Shown in pieces: positions 8,179 to 51,376 of a DNA stretch of 64,000 bases. The DNA lies in assembly GCF_011250645.1 (NCBI RefSeq), contig NZ_JAANNO010000008.1:15894-79893 (forward strand), in the 5' to 3' direction. This DNA comes from Motilibacter aurantiacus. Lineage in GTDB: Bacteria; Actinomycetota; Actinomycetes; Motilibacterales; Motilibacteraceae. The position numbers were made by a program, and so were the translations under genes. Under the pieces are notes generated by a model that saw nothing but the letters and a program-made list of their open reading frames with translations, made no database searches and had not been told where the DNA came from. Position 1 is the stretch's first letter. Every line of letters starts with the position of its first letter.

Positions 8179-10005
8179 TCAGCGGACGTCGACCGCGTCG
8201 ATCTCGGCGTAGAACGAGACCCGGGTCAGCGTGACGGTGTTCCAGCCGCGCTTGAGCCGGACCTCGTGGTCGACGGTCGACCAGTTGCCCCAGCGCGTGT
8301 GCGGCAGCTGGACGATGCCCTCGTCGCGGCCGTTGACCGTGACCCGGTCCGTGGCCTCGATGAGGTAGCCGCCACGCTCGGAGCCGTTGGAGTACGTGAT
8401 GCCGAGCGTCGTGTCGCCGGACTCTGCGGCGTGCACCCGCAGCGTCACCGAGCTGTCGTCGAAGTCGAGCCCGCCCACCACGGCACCGCCGGACGCGCTG
8501 CCGTCCGTGCGCACCCGCGCCCGGTTGATGACGCCGGACTCGGCCTCGTAGCGGGTGCCCTGCGGCGCGGCGGCCGGGACGGGCACCGGCGACGGGTCGG
8601 GCAGCGCGTCGTACACGTCCACCGAGTCGATCTCGGCGAAGTAGGTGCCGCGGGTCAGGGTGACGGTGTTCCAGCCCTGGCGCAGCTGCACGCGCTGCTC
8701 GTTCAGCTGCCAGTTGCCCCAGGTGGTGTGCCAGAAGCTGACCGTGCGGGACTGGCCGTTGACGGTCAGCCGGTCCGTCGACACGACCCGCCGGTTGCCG
8801 TCGGTCGAGCCGTTGGCGAAGCGGATGCCCAGCGTCTTCGGCCCGGCCGTGTCGGCCCACACCTGCAGCGTCACCGAGCTGTCGGCGAAGTCCATGCCGC
8901 CGACCTTGGACAGGCCGGACGCGCTGGTGTCGCCGACCGCGCGCGCGTTGGCGAGGACGCCGTCCTCGGCCTGGTAGCGCCGGGACGCGGCCTCGACCGA
9001 CGGGACGCCGTTCGCGTCGTAGTTCACGTAGCTGACGTACATCGCGCGGTAGGTGTAGGTCGGGTCCCAGCCGTGGAACACGATGGCCGTACGCCCGTCG
9101 CGCCGGGTGAAGACGTCCTGGCCGCCGGGGCCGCGGACGTCGCCCTGGAAGCGGTCGCTCGTGAGCAGCTCGGTCTTGGACTTGGTGTACGGCCCGGTCA
9201 GGCTGGTCGAGGTGGCGTAGCCCGTGCGGTAGTTGCCGCCGTAGAAGTCGTTGGCCGAGTAGTACAGGTAGTACGTGCCCGCGTGCTTGACGAGCGTCGG
9301 GGCCTCGACGACGGCGCCCTCCCACGGCTGGTCGTTGCGGATCAGCGGGGTCGGCGGGCCGGTGACCGTGCGGCCGTTCGCGGCCAGCGGCTGGATGTAG
9401 AGCCGTGCCGGCAGGTTGCAGCAGTTGCCGTCGGACTTCCAGAGCAGGTAGAGCTGCCCGTTCTCGGCGTAGGTTCCGGCGTCGATCGCGCCGCCCTCCG
9501 CGGCGGGGCAGACCAGCGGCCCCTCGCCGACCGGGACGAACGGCCCGTTCGGCGACGTGGCCACCGAGACGCCGATGCACTGGCGCTGCGAGGCCCGGTC
9601 CCGGGCGGTGTAGTAGAGGGCGTACCCGCCCTCGACCTTCGCCACCTCGGGCGCCCAGACGCAGCGGTCGGTGGCGCCGCCCGGGGTGAAGCTGCACTCG
9701 CCGACCCAGGCGCCGAGCGTGGGGGCGGCGTCGGGCTGCGCGGTCCAGTTGCGCAGGTTCTTCGAGGTCTGGTGCTGGACGTTCTGGCCGTCCGAGTTGG
9801 TCGCGTAGGCGTGGTAGACGCCATCGACGAGCAGGATGTCGGGGTCGGCGAAGTTGCGGTCGATCTGCGGCTCGATCGAGAGCCGCGAGCCGTCCTCGAG
9901 CTTCGGCGCAGCGGCCGCGGACTCGACGGACACGGGTGCGATCAGCCCGAGCGCGAGCACCGCGCCCCCGATCGCGGCGCGCAGGCGGCGCGGGAAGTTG
10001 GCCAC
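8179..10005 (-). CDS. Secreted GH43 glycoside hydrolase with two CBM6/35-like modules
   Basis: About 608 residues from GTG 10005, which has the ribosome-binding site AAAGGGA. A Sec signal peptide with a hydrophobic GGAVLALGLIAPVSV core ends near ESAAAA-P. The five-bladed propeller follows: catalytic base Asp in DRNFADPDILL, the Asp region IDAGTYAENGQLYLLWK, and general acid Glu in EGAVVEAPTLVK. Two beta-sandwich carbohydrate-binding repeats follow (YQAEDGVLANAR and YEAESGVINRAR), each ending in a WNTVTLTR..YFAEID strand. GH43 enzymes usually cleave arabinose or xylose linkages in plant hemicellulose. Two upstream dyads (10038-10052, 10100-10107) suggest sugar-responsive control. Confidence 0.85.
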   Translation of the reverse strand: MANFPRRLRAAIGGAVLALGLIAPVSVESAAAAPKLEDGSRLSIEPQIDRNFADPDILLVDGVYHAYATNSDGQNVQHQTSKNLRNWTAQPDAAPTLGAWVGECSFTPGGATDRCVWAPEVAKVEGGYALYYTARDRASQRQCIGVSVATSPNGPFVPVGEGPLVCPAAEGGAIDAGTYAENGQLYLLWKSDGNCCNLPARLYIQPLAANGRTVTGPPTPLIRNDQPWEGAVVEAPTLVKHAGTYYLYYSANDFYGGNYRTGYATSTSLTGPYTKSKTELLTSDRFQGDVRGPGGQDVFTRRDGRTAIVFHGWDPTYTYRAMYVSYVNYDANGVPSVEAASRRYQAEDGVLANARAVGDTSASGLSKVGGMDFADSSVTLQVWADTAGPKTLGIRFANGSTDGNRRVVSTDRLTVNGQSRTVSFWHTTWGNWQLNEQRVQLRQGWNTVTLTRGTYFAEIDSVDVYDALPDPSPVPVPAAAPQGTRYEAESGVINRARVRTDGSASGGAVVGGLDFDDSSVTLRVHAAESGDTTLGITYSNGSERGGYLIEATDRVTVNGRDEGIVQLPHTRWGNWSTVDHEVRLKRGWNTVTLTRVSFYAEIDAVDVR

Positions 10006-36373: not shown

Positions 36374-36841
36374 TCACTCCGCCGCCGCCCGCGCGCGTGC
36401 CGCGGGCGGCGGCCAGCTGCCGTCGGTGGCCCGGCGGAAGCGCCGGCCCGTGACCGTCGTCGGCACGATCCGCACGAAACGCTCCTTCGGCCCGGCCTGC
36501 CAGGGGAACAGGGGCAGCGAGAACGTCGCGCCCAGCTCCTCGAGGCTGCGCACCTCCTGCGCCCGGCCCTTGACGACCACGCTCCAGGCCACGCCCCGGC
36601 CTGCGTCGTAGCCGTCGGCCTCGTACGCGACGGCGGGCGCGACCGTCACGGCGGCGAGCTTGCTCCCCTGCGCGGTGCGGAAGACGACCGACCCGCCGTC
36701 GACCACGTGGTTGACCGGGAAGATGTCGGGCTCGCCGGCGACCGAGACCGCCAGCCGGCCCACGTCGGCCGCGCGCAGCAGCGCCCAGCACTCGTGCGCC
36801 TGCAGGGTCTCCACGCCGTCGTCCCCGTCGTTCGTCACCAT
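36374..36841 (-). CDS. Pyridoxamine-phosphate-oxidase-fold (flavin) protein
   Basis: 155 residues. The split-barrel pattern is clear: WALLRAADVGRLAVSVAGEPDIFPVNHVVDGGSVVFRTAQGSKLAAVTVAPAVAYEADG, here cited by key turns GRLAV, PVNH, FRTAQGSKL and WSVVVKGRAQEV. Relatives bind FMN, F420 or heme; several belong to the DosR regulon of mycobacteria. No ribosome-binding site precedes ATG 36841. AACCCT (36848-36853) seven bases upstream is a fair -10 for leaderless start, and a GGGAGGAAGGTCCC dyad at 36877-36890 sits where an activator would bind. It is downstream of adhE on the same strand with 95 bases between. Confidence 0.8.
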   Translation of the reverse strand: MVTNDGDDGVETLQAHECWALLRAADVGRLAVSVAGEPDIFPVNHVVDGGSVVFRTAQGSKLAAVTVAPAVAYEADGYDAGRGVAWSVVVKGRAQEVRSLEELGATFSLPLFPWQAGPKERFVRIVPTTVTGRRFRRATDGSWPPPAARARAAAE

Positions 36842-36876
36842 GGGTCGAGGGTTGCGCGTTCCGCGTTCGCGCGCCA

Positions 36877-36890
36877 GGGAGGAAGGTCCC
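36877..36890 (-). promoter_or_regulatory. DosR-like box for the PNPOx-fold gene
   Basis: GGGAGGAAGGTCCC. Against the core of the mycobacterial DosR box (GGGACTWWAGTCCC) 11 of 14 positions agree, including both outer GGG and CCC. Its centre is about 42 bases upstream of the ATG, next to a possible -10 (36848-36853). Confidence 0.55.
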
Positions 36891-36936
36891 TTCCAGGCCA
36901 GCGCGGCCCGCCGCCTGTACGGGCGGGCACGCGGTG

Positions 36937-39558
36937 CTAGCCCGCGTACGCCGCCCGCATGATCGCCCGCATGTCCTCGAGCATCGGCATCCGCGGGTTC
37001 GCCGGCGCGCACTGGTCCTCGTACGCGTTCATCGCCTGACGGGGCAGCGCTGCCACGAACTCGCGCTCGTCGACGCCGGCCTCGCGGAACGACGCCTCGA
37101 TCCCCGCCGCCGCGCGCAGCTCCTCGATCGCCCGGGCGTACGACTCGACGCCCTCCTCGGGGGTGGCCGCGGGCAGGCCGAGCGCCCGGGCGATCTCCTG
37201 GAAGCGCTGTGGCGCCCGGTAGTCCTCGTACTTCGGCCAGCCCGTGAGCTTGGCCGGCACGGTCCCGTTGTAGCGCACGACGTGCGGCAGCAGGATGGCG
37301 TTGGCGCGCCCGTGCGCGATGTGGAACGTCGCGCCCAGCGTGTGCGCCATCGCGTGCACGATCCCGAGGAAGGCGTTGCCGAACGCCATGCCGGCGATCG
37401 TGCCAGCGTTGTGCATCTTCTCCCGCGCGTCCGCGTCGTTCGCCCCGTTCTGCACAGCCCGCTCGAGGTTGGCGAAGATCAGCTTGATCGCATGCAGTGC
37501 GAGGCCGTCGGTGAAATCGCTGGCGTAGACGGAGACGTACGCCTCGGTGGCGTGGGTCAGGGCGTCGAACCCGCTGTCGGCGGTGACCTCCGCCGGCATC
37601 GAGGCCGTCAGCACGGGGTCGACGATCGCGACGCTCGGGGTCAGGGCGTAGTCGGCGAGCGGGTACTTCTTGCCCGTGGCGGTGTCCGTGATGACGGCGA
37701 AGGGCGTGACCTCTGCACCTGTTCCCGACGTCGTCGGGATGCACACGAGGCGAGCCCGCTCGCCGAGGCGGGGGAAGGTGAAGGCGCGCTTGCGGATGTC
37801 GAAGAACTTCTCCCGCATGTCGCCGAAGGCGACGTCGGGGTGCTCGTAGAGCAGCCACATGACCTTCGCGGCGTCCATGGGGGAGCCGCCGCCCAGCGCG
37901 AGGATCGTGTCGGGTGCGAACTCGCGCATGAGCGTGGCGCCCCGCTGCACCGTCTCCAGGCTCGGCTCCGGCTCGACGCTGTCGATGATCTGCAGCGCGA
38001 CCGGCTCCCGCCGCCGCTGCAGCACCCGGTTCAGCCTGTCCACGAAGCCGAGCCGCGTCATCGTCGCGTCGGTCACGATCGTCACCCGGGAGATGTCTGG
38101 CATGTCGGCGAGGTAGCGGATGGCGTGCGGCTCGAAGTAGGTGCGCGCCGGGACCTTGAACCACTGCATGTTGTTGGTGCGCCGGCCGACCCGCTTGATG
38201 TTGAGCAGGTTCCCCGCCGAGACGTTGTTCGACACCGAGTTCGAGCCGTAGCTGCCGCAGCCGAGGGTCAGCGACGGGAGGAAGGCCTTGTACATGTCGC
38301 CGATCCCTCCCTGGGACGCCGGCGAGTTCCAGATGACCCGCACCGCCTTGACCCGCCTGCCGAAGGCCTCCGCGAGCTCGGCGTCCTCGGTGTGGATGAC
38401 CGCGCTGTGCCCGAGGCCGTCGAACTCGACCATGGCGGCGGCCAGGTCCAGGCCGTGGGCACGGCCCTCGGCCCGCAGCACTGCGAGCACCGGGGACAGC
38501 TTCTCCCGGGTGAGCGGCTCGTCCGGGCCGACCGAGTCGACCTCGGCGAGCAGCACCGACGTGTCGGCCGGCACCGCGAAGCCGGCCATCTGCGCGATCC
38601 TCGCTGCCGGCTGGCCCACCACGTCGGCGTTGAGCCGCGCGCCGCCACAGTTCGCGCTGTGTGCGGTGGTGCCGAAGACGAGCTCCTCGAGCATCCGCTT
38701 CTCCTCGGGGCTGACCCGGTACGCGTGCAGCCGGGCGAACTCCTGCAGCGCCGCCTCGTAGATGTCCGCGTCGAGGATGACGGCCTGCTCCGACGCACAC
38801 ACCATCCCGTTGTCGAAGCACTTGGACAGGACGATGTCGTTGACGGCGCGGCGCAGCTTCGCCGTGCGCTCCACGTAGGCCGGGACGTTGCCCGCCCCGA
38901 CCCCGAGCGCCGGCTTGCCCGCGGAGTAGGCGGCCTTGACCATGGCGTTCCCGCCGGTCGCGAGGATCACCGAGACGCCCGGATGGCGCATCAGCGCGTG
39001 GGTCGCCTCCAGCGACGGCTCCTCGACCCACTGGATGCAGTTCTCCGGGGCCCCGGCGGCGACGGCTGCTTCCCGTACCGCCAGTGCGGCGGCGGTGCTG
39101 CTGCGCTGCGCCGAGGGGTGGAACGCGAAGACGACGGGGTTGCGAGTCTTCAGCGCGATCAAGGACTTGAAGATGACGGTGGAGGTGGGGTTGGTGACGG
39201 GCGTGACGCCCGCCACGACGCCGACCGGCTCGGCGATCTCGACGATGCCGTCGATCTCGTCGCGGCGGACGACGCCGACGGTCCGGAGACCGGCGATGCT
39301 GTGCGTCACGTGCTCGCACGCGAAGATGTTCTTGACCGCCTTGTCCTCGAACACGCCGCGCCCCGTCTCCTCGACTGCCAGCAGGGCCAGCTCCGTGTGC
39401 TTGCCGAGTGCGGCCACGGAGGCCTTCGCGACGATGTGGTCGACCTGCTCCTGGGTGAAGGAGCCGTAGTCGTCGAGCGCCTTCAACGCGTTCGTCACGA
39501 GCTCGCCGACGGCCACGGTGACCGGCAGTGGGACAGTGGTGGTCGTCTGCTGCGACAC
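36937..39558 (-). CDS. adhE: Bifunctional acetaldehyde-CoA/alcohol dehydrogenase
   Basis: 873 residues from GTG 39558. Residues 1-440 are the CoA-acylating aldehyde dehydrogenase (PVGVVAGVTPVTNPTSTVIF, catalytic Cys in DNGMVCASEQAV). Residues 450-873 are the iron-dependent alcohol dehydrogenase (GGGSPMDAAKVMWLL for [17 protein letters not shown], and iron-ligand His residues in FLGIVHAMAHTLGATFHIAHGRANA). It reduces acetyl-CoA to ethanol, regenerating two NAD. Full length matches E. coli AdhE. With pyruvate formate-lyase 9 kb away it completes an ethanol-forming fermentation. A DosR-like dyad (39626-39639) lies 68 bases upstream. Confidence 0.95.
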   Translation of the reverse strand: MSQQTTTTVPLPVTVAVGELVTNALKALDDYGSFTQEQVDHIVAKASVAALGKHTELALLAVEETGRGVFEDKAVKNIFACEHVTHSIAGLRTVGVVRRDEIDGIVEIAEPVGVVAGVTPVTNPTSTVIFKSLIALKTRNPVVFAFHPSAQRSSTAAALAVREAAVAAGAPENCIQWVEEPSLEATHALMRHPGVSVILATGGNAMVKAAYSAGKPALGVGAGNVPAYVERTAKLRRAVNDIVLSKCFDNGMVCASEQAVILDADIYEAALQEFARLHAYRVSPEEKRMLEELVFGTTAHSANCGGARLNADVVGQPAARIAQMAGFAVPADTSVLLAEVDSVGPDEPLTREKLSPVLAVLRAEGRAHGLDLAAAMVEFDGLGHSAVIHTEDAELAEAFGRRVKAVRVIWNSPASQGGIGDMYKAFLPSLTLGCGSYGSNSVSNNVSAGNLLNIKRVGRRTNNMQWFKVPARTYFEPHAIRYLADMPDISRVTIVTDATMTRLGFVDRLNRVLQRRREPVALQIIDSVEPEPSLETVQRGATLMREFAPDTILALGGGSPMDAAKVMWLLYEHPDVAFGDMREKFFDIRKRAFTFPRLGERARLVCIPTTSGTGAEVTPFAVITDTATGKKYPLADYALTPSVAIVDPVLTASMPAEVTADSGFDALTHATEAYVSVYASDFTDGLALHAIKLIFANLERAVQNGANDADAREKMHNAGTIAGMAFGNAFLGIVHAMAHTLGATFHIAHGRANAILLPHVVRYNGTVPAKLTGWPKYEDYRAPQRFQEIARALGLPAATPEEGVESYARAIEELRAAAGIEASFREAGVDEREFVAALPRQAMNAYEDQCAPANPRMPMLEDMRAIMRAAYAG

Positions 39559-39625
39559 AGGGGGCTCCCCCGGTAGGGCTTCATCCGGCACCGGGAAAGC
39601 TATTGAGGGCAGGAGGCGCGACGTA

Positions 39626-39639
39626 GGGCCCGAAGTCCC
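39626..39639. promoter_or_regulatory. DosR-like box between adhE and the acyl-CoA-synthetase fusion
   Basis: GGGCCCGAAGTCCC, 11 of 14 matches to GGGACTWWAGTCCC. It is 68 bases upstream of the adhE GTG and 181 bases upstream of the divergent gene, so adhE is the nearer target. A weaker match, ending GTCCC at 39750, lies closer to the divergent gene. Confidence 0.5.
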
Positions 39640-39819
39640 GTCCCTGCGGGCGGCATGCCGGCGTCCCGCTGGTCGCCACGATCGACGGGCCCGCCCTGCC
39701 TCGGCAGCACCGGCTGCATCGCACGGGCAGCAGGACAGGCCCTTGGTCCCTGGGCGGGCGGCCGTGCCGTCACGCACTCTCGACCGCATGGCACCCACGG
39801 ACGTGCTCGGGGAACGGCG

Positions 39820-44985
<5,166 letters not shown>

Positions 44986-45051
44986 CCAGGCCTCCTGGAC
45001 GTACGAAGCGGATAGTGCGAATGCGGTTTCAGGACGATGCGCGCGACGGGA

Positions 45052-45156
45052 TCAGCAGCGCGCGGCCGCCTCCGTCGCCCGGGCGAGCCGATGGGCGAGG
45101 GCGACGTTGAGCGCTGCCGCCACGGTCGCCCACACGAGAAGCGCGTTTCCTGTCAT
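45052..45156 (-). CDS. 34-residue hydrophobic peptide
   Basis: A short reading frame from ATG 45156 with AGGAG six bases upstream, ending at TGA 45052-45054. The product MTGNALLVWATVAAALNVAL is followed by AHRLARATEAAARC: one membrane helix with a short basic tail, ending in Cys. It is too short for family recognition. It lies between the tandem Usp gene and the DosR-like dyad at 45238, on the same strand as the Usp gene, and could be co-expressed with it. Confidence 0.4.
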   Translation of the reverse strand: MTGNALLVWATVAAALNVALAHRLARATEAAARC

Positions 45157-45462
45157 GACCATCTCCTACGGTTCGACCTGAGACCCAGCGTCGCCCTGCC
45201 CGGCGTACGACGCAGGTGCCGGAGGGCAGCTCCGTGCGGGACCAAGTCCCCTGGTGCCGGGCCTGCGGTGCAGCGAGCGTGGTGGCGGAGGTGGTCGCGC
45301 ATGACGTACGACGCGGTGACGAGAGCTTCGCGGACAGGCCTGGAGGCCGGTGCGCGAGCGGACCGCGTCGAGCAGGCCGGCCGGAGCGGCCGCACGCCGA
45401 ACCCGGGCCAGGCCCGCGTCACCCTGTCGGCGCAGGCCTGAGAGGGATGCCTAACGGCGCTC
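45157..45462. other. Gene-free stretch with a GGGAC-CAA-GTCCC dyad
   Basis: Between the 34-residue peptide and the second Usp gene I see no supported gene. The main signal is a perfect GGGAC/GTCCC dyad at 45238-45250. An ATG at 45447 sits just before the Usp frame but is out of frame with it. Confidence 0.4.
45238..45250. promoter_or_regulatory. GGGAC-N3-GTCCC dyad, DosR-box-like but one base short
   Basis: GGGACCAAGTCCC: both five-base arms of the DosR consensus are perfect, but the spacer is three bases instead of four. It lies 82 bases from the 34-residue peptide start and about 210 from the Usp start. Whether DevR tolerates the shorter spacing is unknown. Confidence 0.45.
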
Positions 45463-46155
45463 GTGGGCGTGGACAGCTCGCACAAGGCCGAGCAGGCCGC
45501 GTACTGGGCGGCCGAGCACGTGCGGCCGTGCGGCGGAGACGTGCGGCTGCTGTCGGCACTGCCGGCCCGGGCCCGCGTCGTCGGCCCGGTGCTGGTCCCG
45601 CCCGCCTACGCCCCGCACGAGGCCGAGCAGGCGGCCCGCGAGCTGCTGCTGCCCGTGCAACGGCAGGTGGCCCGGATGGCTCCGGACGTTCCGGTGCAGC
45701 TCGCCTTCAGCCCTGCGTCTCCTGCCGATGCCTGGGCCGGGCCGCCGGCGACGCCGACATCGTGGTCCTCGGCCCCCACGCAGCAGGCGCGGTCGAGCGG
45801 CTTCTCGGGGGGCTCGGTCAGCCGTCACCTCGCCGGCCGGCTGCGCACCCCCGTCGTCGCGGGCAGGCGCGGCGGCGGACGCCGCGGCCCCGTGGTCGTC
45901 GGCATCGACGGCTCCGCCGGCTCGCGCGCGGCCGCGCTGTTCGCGGGGCAGGAGGCAGCCCTGCGCGGCGTGGGACTGGTGGCGGCCCGGGTGTGGGCGC
46001 CGAGCCGTCGAACGGACGGCGCCGATGCCGCCTTCTGCGACGAGGTCGACCTGGCCCGCGAGGCCGAGGCCCTCGTCGCCCTCGACGCCGGGACCGTGCT
46101 CGTGCGCTCGCTTCACCCGCAGCTCCCCCTCGCTCTGGTGCCGCCCGCGGCCTGA
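45463..46155 (+). CDS. Universal stress protein with two compensating frameshifts
   Basis: 230 residues from GTG 45463, opening VGVDSSHKAEQAAYWAAEH. Between about 45728 and 45815 the open frame gives a nonsense-like run (WAGPPATPTSWSSAPTQQ), while the +1 frame reads a proper Usp segment, LGRAAGDADIVVLGPHAAG. After that the original frame resumes with SRHLAGRLRTPVVA. So two opposite indels preserve the frame but scramble about 28 residues, including the ATP-binding loop. The start also seems displaced, since ATG 45447 is out of frame. A second Usp half (VVVGIDGSAGSRAAALFA) is short. It is probably a decaying gene or contains sequencing errors. Confidence 0.6.
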   Translation: MGVDSSHKAEQAAYWAAEHVRPCGGDVRLLSALPARARVVGPVLVPPAYAPHEAEQAARELLLPVQRQVARMAPDVPVQLAFSPASPADAWAGPPATPTSWSSAPTQQARSSGFSGGSVSRHLAGRLRTPVVAGRRGGGRRGPVVVGIDGSAGSRAAALFAGQEAALRGVGLVAARVWAPSRRTDGADAAFCDEVDLAREAEALVALDAGTVLVRSLHPQLPLALVPPAA

Positions 46156-46201
46156 GCGGGCGGCAGCCGGGCGGCGCCGGTGCGGGGGGCGTACGCGTAC
46201 G

Positions 46202-46828
46202 TCAGCGCTCGAGCTTGGTCGCCAGGATCGCGACCTGCGTGCGCCGCTCCATCCCGAGCTTGGCCAGCAGGCTCGTGACGTAGTTCTTGACGGTCTTCTC
46301 CGAGAGGAACATCTGCTCGGCGATCTGCCGGTTCGTCAGCCCCTCGCCGATCAGCTCCAGCACCCGGCGCTCCTGGTCGGTCAGGCCGGCGAGCCGCTTG
46401 TCCTCGCGCTTGCCCTCGCGTACCCGCGCCAGCACGCGCGCGGTGACGGCCGGGTCGAGGAGGGACTGGCCGGCACCGACCCGGCGGATCGCGTCCAGCA
46501 GGTCGTCGCCGGAGATGTCCTTGAGGACGTATCCGGCCGCGCCGGCCATGATCGCCGCGAAGATGGCCTCCTCGTCGTCGAAGGACGTCAGGATGAGGGC
46601 GCGCAGCTCCGGCAGCCGTGAGCGGGCCTCACGGCAGACGTCGACGCCCGAGCCGTCGGGCAGGCGCGCGTCGAGGACCGCGACGTCGGGCTTCAGCGCG
46701 GGCAGCCTCCGGATCGCCTCCTGAGCCGATGCGGACTCCCCGATCACCTCGATGTCGGGCTCGCCCTCGAGCAGCTCGCGGATACCGCGCCGGACGATCT
46801 CGTGGTCGTCCAGAAGGAAAACCCGCAT
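46202..46828 (-). CDS. devR: DevR/DosR-like NarL-type response regulator
   Basis: 208 residues from ATG 46828. Receiver residues are intact: Asp7/Asp8, phospho-acceptor Asp53 (VAVLDARLPDG), Thr81 and Lys103 (YVLKDI). The LuxR-type DNA-binding domain reads GLTDQERRVLELIGEGLTNRQIAEQMFLSEKTVKNYVTSLLAKLGMERRTQVA by its positions 148-198; the MFLxEKTVKNYV and LAKLGMERRTQ stretches are nearly the same as in M. tuberculosis DosR. It should be phosphorylated by the DevS-like kinase and activate the genes preceded by GGGAC-type dyads in this locus. Confidence 0.93.
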   Translation of the reverse strand: MRVFLLDDHEIVRRGIRELLEGEPDIEVIGESASAQEAIRRLPALKPDVAVLDARLPDGSGVDVCREARSRLPELRALILTSFDDEEAIFAAIMAGAAGYVLKDISGDDLLDAIRRVGAGQSLLDPAVTARVLARVREGKREDKRLAGLTDQERRVLELIGEGLTNRQIAEQMFLSEKTVKNYVTSLLAKLGMERRTQVAILATKLER

Positions 46829-46910
46829 GGTCAGCCCTCCAGGAACCCGGTTCGTCAGCTGTCGTCGAGCATAGGCGGGCGGGGCGTCGTGCCGTCCGCG
46901 CCCGAGCGCG

Positions 46911-47099
46911 TCAGGTGCGCCTGCGCAGGCGCAGCGGCGGTGCCAGCGCCTCGCGCGTCGGGGCGAGCGCGACCACCCCGCAGCGGTCCCGGGCGACCCA
47001 GCGCGGGTTCCCGGCGACCTGCTCCCGGTCCAGCGCGAGCCGCCCGGGTGGGGCGGCCCACCGGGTCGCCGAGAGGCGTGGTGCTGCACGTTCGGTCAT
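46911..47099 (-). CDS. Small basic protein, unknown
   Basis: 62 residues from ATG 47099, with GGAG seven bases upstream. Rich in Arg and Pro (RLSATRWAAPPGRLALD, then a stretch ending PPLRLRRRT). No recognised family. It lies 82 bases upstream of devR on the same strand and 61 bases downstream of a strong DosR-like box, so it could be the first gene of a devR transcript. Its reality is uncertain. Confidence 0.35.
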   Translation of the reverse strand: MTERAAPRLSATRWAAPPGRLALDREQVAGNPRWVARDRCGVVALAPTREALAPPLRLRRRT

Positions 47100-47159
47100 C
47101 GGGCTGCTCCGCTTCGTCGGCTCGCCGTCGACGCTACGGCCGGCACGGCGCACGCCGAA

Positions 47160-47173
47160 GGGACCTACGTCCC
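47160..47173. promoter_or_regulatory. DosR-like box, GGGACCTACGTCCC
   Basis: Both five-base arms GGGAC and GTCCC with the four-base spacing of the mycobacterial consensus. It is 61 bases upstream of the small minus-strand gene that precedes devR. A weak second half-site (ending GTCCC at 47194) follows at 21 bases, about two helical turns. It could provide autoregulation of devR. Confidence 0.6.
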
Positions 47174-47313
47174 GACGGTTCCGCCGCAGGTCCCTCGGCC
47201 GAGCAGGCGGTCAGGCGCCGAGGCGGTGCCCGTCCCGCGGCGGTGGGCACGGTCTCCGGCCGGAGCTGAGCACGGGCGGCGCCGGTCAGACCGACGCCGT
47301 CGTCGGACAGCTG

Positions 47314-47340
47314 CAGGTAGTCCAGGTAGTCCAGGTAGTC
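47314..47340. repeat. Three tandem copies of a 9-bp repeat
   Basis: CAGGTAGTC occurs three times without interruption. The unit is a multiple of three. It lies midway between two sets of DosR-like boxes in a non-coding stretch. Function unknown. Confidence 0.7.
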
Positions 47341-47538
47341 CCGCAGCAGCGACGGGCCCGTGAGGAACGAGGGCACCGACCGGCCGTCGCCGCTCCTCCT
47401 CGAGGTGCCGGGGGCGGCCCTGCTGCCGCCTCCTGCTGCTCGGCCGACGGTGCGCCCCGGCCCCTGCCGGGCAGAAGGAGGCCGACGTCCCGACCTGCGG
47501 TCGACGGGCGACGCGGTCGCAAGGGCGCTCGTGACGAC

Positions 47539-47574
47539 AGGACGTACGTCCCCCGCGGGAGGGACGTTCCCCTC
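47539..47574 (+). promoter_or_regulatory. Tandem DosR-like boxes upstream of doxX
   Basis: AGGACGTACGTCCC (47539-47552, 11 of 14 to the consensus) and a second site beginning GGGACGTTCCCC (47561-47574, weaker in its right half). The sites start 22 bases apart, two helical turns, as tandem DosR boxes do in mycobacterial promoters. The nearer one ends 55 bases before the doxX ATG. Confidence 0.6.
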
Positions 47575-47629
47575 GATGGCACCCGGCCCCAGCCGAGCAA
47601 CGCTGGGGTCATCGAGAGGGAGGTGCCAG

Positions 47630-48241
47630 ATGGCCACCAAGGAGTTCGGGACGCAGGGCCGGCCCGCTGTGGACGGCATCAGCGCCGAGCGGGCAGCCGA
47701 GGCCCCGCGTGGAGCGATCGTCACGCACACGGCGACCAGGGCGCTCGCGGTCACGCGGGTCGCGACCGGGTTCGTCTTCCTGTGGGCGTTCGCCGACAAG
47801 GCGTTCGGGCTGCGGTACTCGACCGGTGCGGGCAGGGCGTGGGTCGAGGGCGGCTCGCCCACCGAGGGGTTCCTGTCGGGTGTGCACGTCGGCCCGTTCG
47901 CCGCGGCGTTCCGCGCGATGGCCGGCAACCCGGTCGTGGACTGGCTGTTCATGCTCGGGCTGCTGGGGATCGGCGTCGCGCTCGTCGCCGGCGTGGCCAT
48001 GCGGGTCGCCGCCGCCTCGGGCGCGCTGATGATGGCGTTCATGTGGGCGGCGGAGTGGCCGCTGGCCCGGTTCGACGAGGCCGGCGAGCTGACCCGGTCG
48101 AGCAACCCGCTGGTGGACTACCACGTCGTCTACGCCCTCGTGCTGATCGTGCTGGCGGCCACGTACGCCGGGACCACCTGGGGCCTGGGCAAGCGGTGGG
48201 CACGGCTGCCGATCGTGCAGCGCAACCGCTGGCTCCTCTAG
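47630..48241 (+). CDS. DoxX-family membrane protein
   Basis: 203 residues from ATG 47630 behind GAGAGGGAGG. After a soluble N-terminus of about 35 residues there are four hydrophobic segments: RVATGFVFLWAFADKAFGL, DWLFMLGLLGIGVALVAGV, AASGALMMAFMWAAEWPL and YHVVYALVLIVLAATYAG. The FLWAFADKAFGLRY start and NNP(V/L)VDYHVVYAL end (here SSNPLVDYHVVYALVL) match DoxX proteins of actinomycetes. DoxX members have been tied to thiosulfate:quinone or redox homeostasis; the role here is open. DosR-like tandem boxes lie upstream, and a hairpin separates it from pflB. Confidence 0.8.
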   Translation: MATKEFGTQGRPAVDGISAERAAEAPRGAIVTHTATRALAVTRVATGFVFLWAFADKAFGLRYSTGAGRAWVEGGSPTEGFLSGVHVGPFAAAFRAMAGNPVVDWLFMLGLLGIGVALVAGVAMRVAAASGALMMAFMWAAEWPLARFDEAGELTRSSNPLVDYHVVYALVLIVLAATYAGTTWGLGKRWARLPIVQRNRWLL

Positions 48242-48265
48242 CTCCGGAAGGCCCAGGACGGCCTG

Positions 48266-48294
48266 AGGCGCCCGGCTCTCCCGGCCGGGCGCCT
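48266..48294 (+). terminator. Hairpin between doxX and pflB
   Basis: AGGCGCCCGGC / GCCGGGCGCCT, 11-bp perfect stem, 7-base loop, 24 bases after the doxX stop and 35 bases before the pflB start. It may end the doxX transcript or let only part of it continue into pflB, as no separate DosR-like box was seen after it. Confidence 0.6.
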
Positions 48295-48329
48295 GACCCC
48301 CTCTCCCCGATCCAGGCAAGGAGCGCGTC

Positions 48330-50609
48330 ATGTCCGTCACCACCAGCCGGCCGCTGGTCCCCACGCCGCTGCGCGACCCGGCGGAGCCCTGGCGGGGCTT
48401 CGCGACGGGCACCTGGCGCGAAGGCATCGACGTCCGGGACTTCGTCCAGCGCAACTACACGCCCTACACCGGGGACGGCGGCTTCCTCGCCGGCCCCACG
48501 GCCCGGACCAAGGGGATCTGGGCGACGCTGGAAGCGCTCTTCACCGAGGAGCGCAGGCGCGGCATCCACGACGCCGACGTGACCACTCCGTCGTCGATCA
48601 CGAGCCACGCGCCCGGCTACATCGACCGGGACAACGAGATCGTGGTCGGCCTGCAGACCGACGCCCCGCTCAAGCGGGCCATCATGCCCAAGGGGGGCCT
48701 GCGCATGGTGGAGACCGGGCTGGCGGCCTACGGGATGGAGCTCGACCCGCTGGTGCGCGAGGTCTTCGCCAAGCACGCCAAGACGCACAACGCCGGCGTG
48801 TTCGACGCCTACACCCCCGGAATCCTGAAGGCCCGCAAGGCCGGGATCATCACCGGGCTGCCCGATGCGTACGGCCGCGGCCGCATCATCGGCGACTACC
48901 GGCGCGTCCCGCTCTACGGCGTCGACCGGCTGGTGGCGGCCAAGCGCGCGGAGAAGGCCCGCCTGGACAAGCTCGAGGCCACCGAGCCGACGATCCGGCT
49001 GCGGGAGGAGCTGTCGGAGCAGATCCGCGCGCTCGGCGAGCTCGTCGAGATGGCGCGGTCGTACGGGTACGACGTGAGCCGTCCCGCGCAGGACGCCCGC
49101 GAGGCCGTGCAGTGGCTCTACTTCGCCTACCTGGCGGCGACGAAGGAGCAGAACGGCGCGGCCATGTCGCTGGGCCGGACCTCGACCTTCCTGGACGTCT
49201 ACCTGCAGCGTGACCTCGCCGAGGGCCGGCTCACCGAGACGCGGGCCCAGGAGCTGATCGACGACTTCGTCATCAAGCTGCGCATCATCCGCTTCCTGCG
49301 CACCCCGGAGTACGACGAGCTCTTCTCCGGAGACCCGACCTGGGTCACCGAGACGATCGGGGGGATCGGCGAGGACGGCCGGCCCCTGGTGACGCGGACG
49401 TCGTTCCGCTTCCTGCAGACGCTCTACAACCTGGGCCCGGCGCCGGAGCCGAACCTCACGGTGCTCTGGTCCCCGCAGCTGCCCGAGGGGTTCAAGCGGT
49501 TCTGCGCGCGGGTGTCGGTGGACACGAGCTCGATCCAGTACGAGTCCGACGAGCTGCTGCGGCCGCGGTTCGGTGACGACACGGCCATCGCGTGCTGCGT
49601 CTCCCCGATGAAGGTCGGCAAGCAGATGCAGTTCTTCGGCGCGCGGGCGAACCTCGCGAAGGCCCTGCTCTACGCCATCAACGGAGGGCGTGACGAGCTG
49701 AGCGGCGAGCAGGTCGGCCCGGCCTTCCCGCCGATCACCGACAACTACCTGTTCGCCGACGAGCTCGAGTGGCGGCTCGAGCTGATGATGGGCTGGCTGG
49801 CCCGGACGTACGTCGACGCGCTCAACACCATCCACTACATGCACGACAAGTACGCGTACGAGCGGCTGGAGATGGCGCTGCACGACGTGGACGTCGAGCG
49901 GACGATGGCGTGCGGCATCGCGGGGCTGTCGGTCGCGGCCGACTCCCTCTCGGCGGTGAGGCACGCGCGGGTGAGGGTGCTGCGTGACGAGCGCGGGCTG
50001 GCGACGGGCTTCGAGGTCGAGGGGGAGTACCCGGCGTTCGGGAACAACGACGACGCCGTCGACTCCATCGCGGTCGGGCTGGTGGAGACCTTCATGGCGA
50101 AGCTGCGCGAGCACCCGACGTACCGCGGCGCGCGGCACACCCAGTCGGTCCTGACGATCACGTCGAACGTGGTCTACGGGAAGAAGACCGGGTCCACCCC
50201 GGACGGCCGGCTGGCCGGGGAGCCTTTCGCCCCGGGCGCCAACCCGATGAACGGGCGCGACCGGCACGGCGTGGTGCCGGCGGCGATGTCGGTGGCGAAG
50301 CTGCCGTTCGCGGCGGCCGAGGACGGCATCTCCCTCACGATCACGATCGCGCCCACCGGCCTCGGCACGACGGCCGACGAGCGGGCCGAGAACCTCGCGG
50401 GGGTCCTCGACGGCTACGTCGGCACCGGCGGCTACCACATGAACGTCAACGTGCTGAAGCGCGAGACGCTGCTGGACGCGATGGAGCACCCGGAGCTCTA
50501 CCCGAGCCTGACCATCCGGGTGTCGGGCTACGCCGTCAACTTCGTCCGGCTGACCCGCGAGCAGCAGCGCGACGTCATCAACCGGACCTTCCACGAGAAG
50601 CTGGTGTGA
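48330..50609 (+). CDS. pflB: Pyruvate formate-lyase (formate C-acetyltransferase)
   Basis: 759 residues, the length of E. coli PflB. Catalytic Cys422-Cys423 lie in [12 protein letters not shown]; the glycyl radical is Gly733 in RVSGYAVNF. It converts pyruvate and CoA to acetyl-CoA and formate without NADH. The radical is destroyed by oxygen, so the enzyme is useful only under hypoxia; this agrees with its position in a DevR/DevS locus. No formate channel or formate dehydrogenase is seen here. The next gene is its activase, three bases before the stop. The start is preceded by AGGCAAGGAG. Confidence 0.97.
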
Positions 50610-51376
50610 GGATGGCTGTCCGTGCCGACGCGACCCCTGTCGAGCCAGCAGTGGGCTTCGTGCACTCGTGGGACGTCGTGACCGGCGCGGACGGCCCCGG
50701 CACCCGGCTGACCTTCTTCCTCGCGGGGTGCCCCTTGCGCTGCGCCTACTGCCACAACCCGGACACCTGGCAGATGCGGCGGGGAACCCGCACCGGGGTG
50801 GCGGAGGCGATGACCCGGGTGACGTCGTACGCGCCCTTCCTGCGGGCGGCGCGCGGAGGGGTCACCGCGAGCGGTGGGGAGCCCTTGCTGCAAGCGCGTT
50901 TCGTGGAAACGCTCTTCAGGCAATGCCGTGACGCGGGCCTGCACACCGCCCTCGACACGAGCGGCTACCTCGGTGCCCGCGCCTCGGACGCGCTGCTCGC
51001 CGACACGAGCCTCGTCCTCCTCGACGTGAAGTCCTGGGACCCGGCGCTGTACCGGCAGGTCACCGGCACCGGTGAGGTCGCGCCGACGCTCGCGTTCGGG
51101 CACCGGCTCGCGGCTCTCGGTGTCCCGGTCTGGCTGCGCTACGTCTTCGTGCCCGGCCTGACCGGGGACTTCGAGGACGTCGGGCAGATCGCGGACTACG
51201 CCGCCGGCCTCGGGAACGTGGAGCGGGTCGACGTGCTGCCCTTCCACTCGATGGGCGCGGCGAAGTACGAGGCGCTCGGCATCCCCTACCCCTGCGCCGA
51301 GATGCGCCCGCCGACGGCCGAGGAGGTCGAGGCGGTCAAGGAGGTCTTCCGGGCGCGTGAGCTGGTGGCGCCGTAG
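50606..51376 (+). CDS. pflA: Pyruvate formate-lyase activating enzyme (radical SAM)
   Basis: 256 residues. Radical SAM cluster motif CX3CX2C in [16 protein letters not shown], preceded by [16 protein letters not shown] and followed by [12 protein letters not shown] (the SAM GGE motif). It makes the Gly733 radical in PflB using SAM. GTG 50606 overlaps the pflB stop; ATG 50612 is an alternative. Either way translation is coupled to pflB. Confidence 0.95.

Follow-up and report, generated by a model that had tools for sequence, protein, structure and literature searches.

The 64,000-nucleotide stretch of the Motilibacter aurantiacus genome analysed here (the window; contig NZ_JAANNO010000008.1, positions counted from its first letter) carries a 15-kb island in which the genes for a DosT-like sensor kinase (devS) and a DosR-like response regulator (devR) stand among those for pyruvate formate-lyase (PFL; pflB), its activating enzyme (pflA) and the bifunctional dehydrogenase AdhE. 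The gene order is PNPOx(-), adhE(-), GNAT/acyl-CoA-synthetase(+), devS(+), a two-domain universal stress protein (usp) gene (-), a degenerate usp(+), devR(-), DoxX-like(+), pflB(+) and pflA(+), in a high-GC assembly of 4.59 Mb and 62 contigs that is 98.8% complete. These genes, the motifs kept in their products and the boxes of DosR/OsdR type between them are present in the sequence. Together they make it probable that the island is a hypoxia locus of the DevRS (DosR/OsdR) type with a mixed-acid fermentation module of its own, which would be switched on by DevS-DevR.

In the chain of events that we infer from these features, a drop in oxygen would cause the heme-bearing GAF-A domain of the kinase to lose its bound O2, and the kinase would phosphorylate DevR. 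DevR~P would bind the boxes before adhE, before the presumed doxX-pflB-pflA operon, before the PNPOx gene and before devR itself, and so induce them. PflA would then activate PFL, directing the flux of pyruvate to acetyl-CoA and formate; AdhE would convert part of the acetyl-CoA to ethanol with recycling of NADH, and the remainder would go to acetate, with a yield of ATP, via Pta-AckA encoded elsewhere in the genome. The DosR/OsdR response has mostly been studied as a dormancy route in supposed obligate aerobes; if our reading is right, the intact-looking, box-bearing PFL-AdhE module next to it, which recurs in several families, would mean that anaerobic energy metabolism can be among the outputs of the switch.

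Candidate boxes in the island

Boxes were scored with a position weight matrix (PWM) made from 12 published OsdR sites and the mycobacterial consensus; the intergenic places had been noticed by eye in a plain-pattern list before the matrix was built. Four of the five top-scoring sites of the window are intergenic and lie in the island, at 36876, 39625, 47159 and 47538 (Table 1). The second-best site of the window, at 9532, falls within an open frame of 619 aa, and we did not treat it as regulatory. Within 1756 intergenic bases, five sites score at least 10, where shuffled sequence averages 0.12, and four score at least 12, where it averages 0.04 (the site at 39736, among the five, is intergenic only with the GNAT gene starting at about 39820); none of 2000 dinucleotide shuffles reached either count. 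The island as a whole holds five sites of at least 11, one of them inside pflB, compared with 0.20 per 10 kb across 400 kb of the same genome. A further box (56426, score 12.4) lies where an open frame resembling a response regulator begins, as read from the sequence and the listing of open reading frames (ORFs).

Sensor kinase and regulator

The GAF-A domain of the kinase has its best structural match in DosT (2vzw, E 1.6e-54), and His153 and Tyr175 align, free of gaps, with the proximal heme histidine (DosS His149/DosT His147) and the distal tyrosine (171/169). The roles of these residues and of DosS Glu87 are described in the available part of PMC4082495. At the position of Glu87 the window kinase has glycine, which the same source gives for DosT too, a pattern suggestive of a DosT-type oxygen sensor. 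The trio of His, Tyr and Gly is kept in all 14 kinases that match with 150 bits or more at pfl loci (two of these 14 repeat another locus). When the N-terminal part of the kinase is compared with the rest of this genome, matches other than the window's own reach at most 64 bits.

DevR aligns to 3c3w along its length, with LDARLPDG (containing the receiver Asp) and SEKTVKNYV (the recognition helix) lining up with their counterparts. The receiver Asp and the helix EKTVKNYV have functional roles in DevR/DosR/OsdR regulators. A second DevR, 68% identical, is encoded elsewhere in the genome (contig C7, 70731-71342; L188), and in the kinase beside it the heme His is replaced by Ala and the Tyr by Leu.

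Fermentation enzymes

The enzymes of the module keep the motifs by which they are recognised. Residues 18-756 of PflB align with the E. coli PFL (1h16), with Cys-Cys at 422-423 and the glycyl-radical motif RVSGYA from residue 730; PflA keeps CxxxCxxC and matches structures 8fo0/3c8f; and AdhE, in which acetaldehyde dehydrogenase and iron-type alcohol dehydrogenase are fused, matches the AdhE structure 6ahc over residues 17-873. The island's PFL is the sole PFL-family match in the assembly. Models for ackA and pta are matched above cut-off elsewhere in the genome, which makes ethanol, acetate and formate all possible as end products.

The neighbouring GNAT/acyl-CoA-synthetase gene was considered as a source of ATP and then downgraded. 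Its product contains Succ_CoA_lig, CoA_binding_2, GNAT and a partial ATP-grasp_5 domain, the last shortened (positions 108-221 of 221 matched, with a gap against 8wzu), and it scores 426 bits against the ADP-forming acetate-CoA ligase model TIGR02717 (cut-off 567); because of the shortened ATP-grasp and the score below cut-off we do not credit it with ATP formation. Relatives of this gene are found near pfl at four of the loci from other genomes (L033, L122, L140 and L148).

AdhE and PFL are the classical pair for redox balancing, and this, together with the ackA and pta matches, speaks against another use of the same genes under the same regulator: a module for survival and not for fermentative growth, in which the formate and acetyl-CoA made by PFL would meet one-carbon needs or, in dormant cells, supply formate for respiratory oxidation, with AdhE just venting NADH. 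We hold this to be unlikely, though it is the best of the alternatives. It fits a formate-dehydrogenase-alpha-like protein in the genome (563 bits, under the family cut-off of 666), the shortened ATP-grasp that makes the neighbouring acyl-CoA synthetase a doubtful ATP source, and the standing of DosR-type regulons as dormancy regulons in the accessible text of PMC5069765.

Boxes at pfl loci of relatives

From 124 pfl loci (L033-L156), less L136 (fragmented pflB) and with four identical PflB merged (L117, L121, L128 and L152), we obtained 83 actinobacterial and 36 other loci, assigned by hand on the basis of the record titles; the named PFL loci are the best 80 of 587 confirmed stretches of one collection scan. 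Between -400 and +30 of pflB, a box of at least 8 is found in 46/83 actinobacterial vs 1/36 other loci, and one of at least 12 in 24/83 vs 0/36, the background from 8164 random windows of the same loci being 8.4% and 3.3%, respectively. Boxes of at least 8 are concentrated in the PFL clade group of the window (27 of 39 loci) and in two other Streptomyces clades (5/6 and 8/10). The four-base spacer is preferred: at a threshold of 10 it gives boxes in 29/83 loci, compared with 2-7/83 for other spacers, and at 8 in 40/83, with a somewhat raised count for spacer 5 (15/83). Other genes of such loci likewise have a box of at least 8 upstream of their starts (adhE 13/15, devR 10/12, doxX 13/15, usp 21/34, PNPOx 11/17); the counts are lower for devS (3/11) and nil for pflA (0/80).

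The boxes also go with the regulator. DevR was taken as present at a match of E<=1e-50, a level that may include non-heme paralogues, and the comparison covered 43 loci from 42 of the 46 pfl-bearing genomes, omitting G000 (the window's own) and the fragments G012, G074 and G335. A box of at least 6 occurs at 1/8 pfl loci of genomes without DevR vs 30/35 of those with it (Fisher 1.7e-4, p-values here being too small because related genomes are not independent, which detracts from our reading), and a box of at least 8 at 1/8 vs 25/35. Finally, a matrix-free scan for inverted repeats upstream of pflB recovered GGGCC-N4-GGCCC in 8/82 loci and in neither control.

The commonest repeat in that scan is nevertheless a different one, the Rex-type TTGTG-N8-CACAA (11 of 82 actinobacterial loci), which raises the question of whether another redox regulator, of Rex or CRP/FNR type, controls PFL and AdhE, with the DevRS genes as incidental neighbours. 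The Rex operator consensus is TTGTGAAN4TTCACAA; perfect copies stand before pflB in 9/16 loci of the two other Streptomyces PFL clades, and near-perfect ones in 3/28 loci of the remaining group. In the window's own PFL group, no site with up to three mismatches was found (0/39), nor is there one with up to four in the 64-kb window, and DosR-type boxes are there instead, so that for this island we regard such control as very unlikely. Nine loci (L062, L069, L071, L091, L114, L126, L138, L143 and L147) have a perfect Rex-type operator plus a DosR-type box scoring 7.9-17.3. In the two Streptomyces clades, Rex-type and DosR-type sites before pflB could possibly mean double control, by NADH state and by oxygen.

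Linkage and distribution

The initial annotation had read the island as a dormancy response that, in this lineage, switches on mixed-acid fermentation, and had proposed a search of related actinomycetes for the same gene order. In that search DevR and/or DevS flank pflB in 15 of the 83 actinobacterial loci, Usp or AdhE only in 18, and none of these in 50; the counts are lower bounds because the fetched flanks extend at most about 10 kb. The association with DevRS is seen again in Streptomyces (linked islands in S. globisporus, L042, and S. morookaense, L035, for example), in Sphaerisporangium and in a Frankiaceae metagenome-assembled genome (MAG), and a putative PFL is listed as co-expressed with OsdR in S. 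lividans (in the consulted part of PMC6302529), so the restriction to one lineage was too narrow. The proposed switch itself is borne out in part: boxes at adhE, doxX-pflB-pflA, the PNPOx gene and devR, boxes in relatives and the kept heme His and Tyr all suggest that the earlier interpretation was right in direction.

On a PFL tree of the 83 actinobacterial loci, 12 of the 36 others and the window, the DevRS-linkage label is clustered, requiring 11 changes vs a shuffled mean of 15.0 (1/500 shuffles as low). The window falls in a group of 40 rows (SH-aLRT, the Shimodaira-Hasegawa-like approximate likelihood ratio, 85, not starred), on a long branch that leaves its placement unsure; linkage to DevRS, Usp or AdhE is found in 32 of these rows, counting the window, compared with two of the 44 actinobacterial rows outside the group, both linked to AdhE. 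Across the class, 46 of 393 sampled genomes have a PFL match, 43 above cut-off. Within the family PFL was found in one of five genomes, the window's own, and in none of the four others. One of these (G004, L205) combines boxes and genes for DevR, Usp and PNPOx with a DevS in which the His, Tyr and Gly of the heme site are all kept; adhE, pflB and pflA were unmatched in the 40 kb fetched. That the genes are adjacent by chance or hitchhiking, with no co-regulation, is the least likely explanation, for all that there is a degenerate Usp and a shortened acyl-CoA synthetase, and that one of the four relatives retains the DevRS core without pfl/adhE nearby, given a linkage that is recurrent and clustered on the PFL tree and boxes that stand upstream of the metabolic genes.

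Several observations weigh against control of the fermentation module by DevS-DevR. The 12 published sites in the matrix are largely predicted and are mixed with the mycobacterial consensus; the plain pattern GGGAC-N4-GTCCC, allowing a single mismatch at most, shows no enrichment across the window (8 matches vs 9.1 expected); and the box stands before doxX, not directly before pflB, with an 88-base gap and then a 4-base overlap along the three genes, so that control of pfl rests on the presumed operon. The second DevR, whose partner kinase is without the heme residues, could use the same boxes. Among the relatives, 37/83 actinobacterial pfl loci are without a box of at least 8, which is found in only 6/28 of the remaining clade group, mostly Micrococcales, and DevR (E<=1e-50) is present in 38/46 pfl-bearing vs 255/347 other genomes, a weak co-occurrence. 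As for the acetate branch, the ackA match spans model positions 90-398 only and is barely above cut-off.

A wider proposal, to which we give rather less than even credence, is that DevR/OsdR may be an ancestral regulator of PFL in much of Actinomycetes, even in genomes that have devRS at a distance from pfl. On this view a Rex operator would be an extra of some Streptomyces PFL clades, the Micrococcales would mostly have lost the box or never had it, and fermentation would have dropped out of the regulons of mycobacteria and of the S. coelicolor type, leaving these as reduced forms.

Gene content of the island

Coordinates and identities (Table 1) were taken from ORFs and family models (Pfam, NCBIfam/TIGR). 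Most of the gene list of the initial annotation stood up to this: the DosS/DosT-like kinase with its GAF-GAF-HisKA_3-HATPase architecture, the DosR-like regulator with phospho-site and recognition region kept, and the PNPOx-fold gene, adhE, pflB and pflA, all within 15 kb. It had overlooked the GNAT/acyl-CoA-synthetase gene, which shares 4 bases with the start of devS. It had also listed two Usp genes, for which the motif G-x2-G-x9-G(S/T) is characteristic. The first gene contains this motif twice; the second lacks it and is a degenerate remnant. The DoxX label is weakly supported: the protein itself has zero Pfam matches at E<=1, and 9 of the 10 homologues scanned (out of 18 matches) hit PF07681 DoxX, one of them above cut-off.

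Table 1. Genes and candidate DosR/OsdR-type boxes of the island, in window positions
Feature	Position	Strand	Remarks
PNPOx-fold gene	36374..36841	-	Pyridox_ox_2 PF12900, 109 bits; ATG start at 36841 from translation
adhE, bifunctional acetaldehyde-CoA/alcohol dehydrogenase	36937..39558	-	NF010378, 1357 bits (cut-off 951)
GNAT + ADP-forming acyl-CoA-synthetase-like gene	about 39820..42312	+	Open frame from 39655
devS/dosT-like sensor kinase	42309..44108	+	Two GAF stretches, HisKA_3, HATPase
Two-domain universal stress protein	44068..44985	-	PF00582, 189 bits, two Usp stretches
Degenerate Usp remnant	45463..46155	+	Partial stretches, 42-46 bits
devR/dosR-like response regulator	46202..46828	-	Best match 3c3w DevR, E 3.4e-76
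DoxX-like, first gene of presumed doxX-pflB-pflA operon	47630..48241	+	DoxX matches of homologues
pflB, pyruvate formate-lyase	48330..50609	+	TIGR01255, 1135 bits (cut-off 994)
pflA, PFL-activating radical SAM enzyme	50606..51376	+	TIGR02493, 284 bits (cut-off 232)
Box upstream of PNPOx gene	36876..36891	.	PWM score 12.7
Box between adhE and GNAT/acyl-CoA-synthetase gene	39625..39640	.	PWM score 13.9
Weaker box	39736..39751	.	Score 10.3; intergenic only if GNAT gene starts ~39820
Box ~330 bases upstream of devR	47159..47174	.	Score 16.0; zero-mismatch GGGAC-N4-GTCCC
Box ~80 bases upstream of doxX-pflB-pflA	47538..47553	.	PWM score 15.1

Comparison with known systems

The closest known system is the OsdKR island of S. 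coelicolor and S. lividans, which, as far as the available portions of its literature describe it, shares with the window a DosT-like kinase, a DevR-type regulator, Usp, PNPOx and alcohol-dehydrogenase genes and the same kind of box. The PFL activase of S. lividans is listed as an N-terminal fragment and putative pseudogene, whereas the pflA of the window, like its pflB, looks intact; likewise, the alcohol dehydrogenase beside osdR is given as a single enzyme (a "zinc-deprived alcohol dehydrogenase" in S. coelicolor), whereas the adhE of the window is bifunctional and looks intact. The OsdR regulon and its boxes are described in PMC5069765, in the accessible part of which Table 1 is without PFL and OsdR control is predicted for 20/22 genes of SCO0198-SCO0219, a range including SCO0206. 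The S. lividans orthologue of SCO0206, a "putative pyruvate formate-lyase", and the activase fragment are listed as co-expressed with OsdR in Table 2 of PMC6302529, and the two mentions of PFL found in the available text of that paper are both in this table. The association of DevRS with PFL is hence not wholly new, and this co-expression is partial prior art. Among the papers listed in our literature search, whose coverage left out most subscription journals, we found none that treats PFL as an output of DosR/OsdR.

With DosST-DosR of M. tuberculosis, as given in the consulted part of PMC4082495, the window shares the GAF-A proximal His and distal Tyr, the regulator, a Usp-type neighbour and the type of box, with Gly in place of DosS Glu87 as in DosT; the window carries the PFL-AdhE module, whereas PFL is, according to the initial annotation, absent from mycobacterial DosR regulons. 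M. tuberculosis has a gene named pflA (Rv3138), by number five locus tags from dosR (Rv3133c) in the partial source used. With the mixed-acid fermentation of enterobacteria and firmicutes, finally, the window has in common PflB, PflA and AdhE with their known motifs. In those organisms PFL and AdhE are controlled by FNR/ArcA or Rex, whereas in the window they come with boxes of DevR type.

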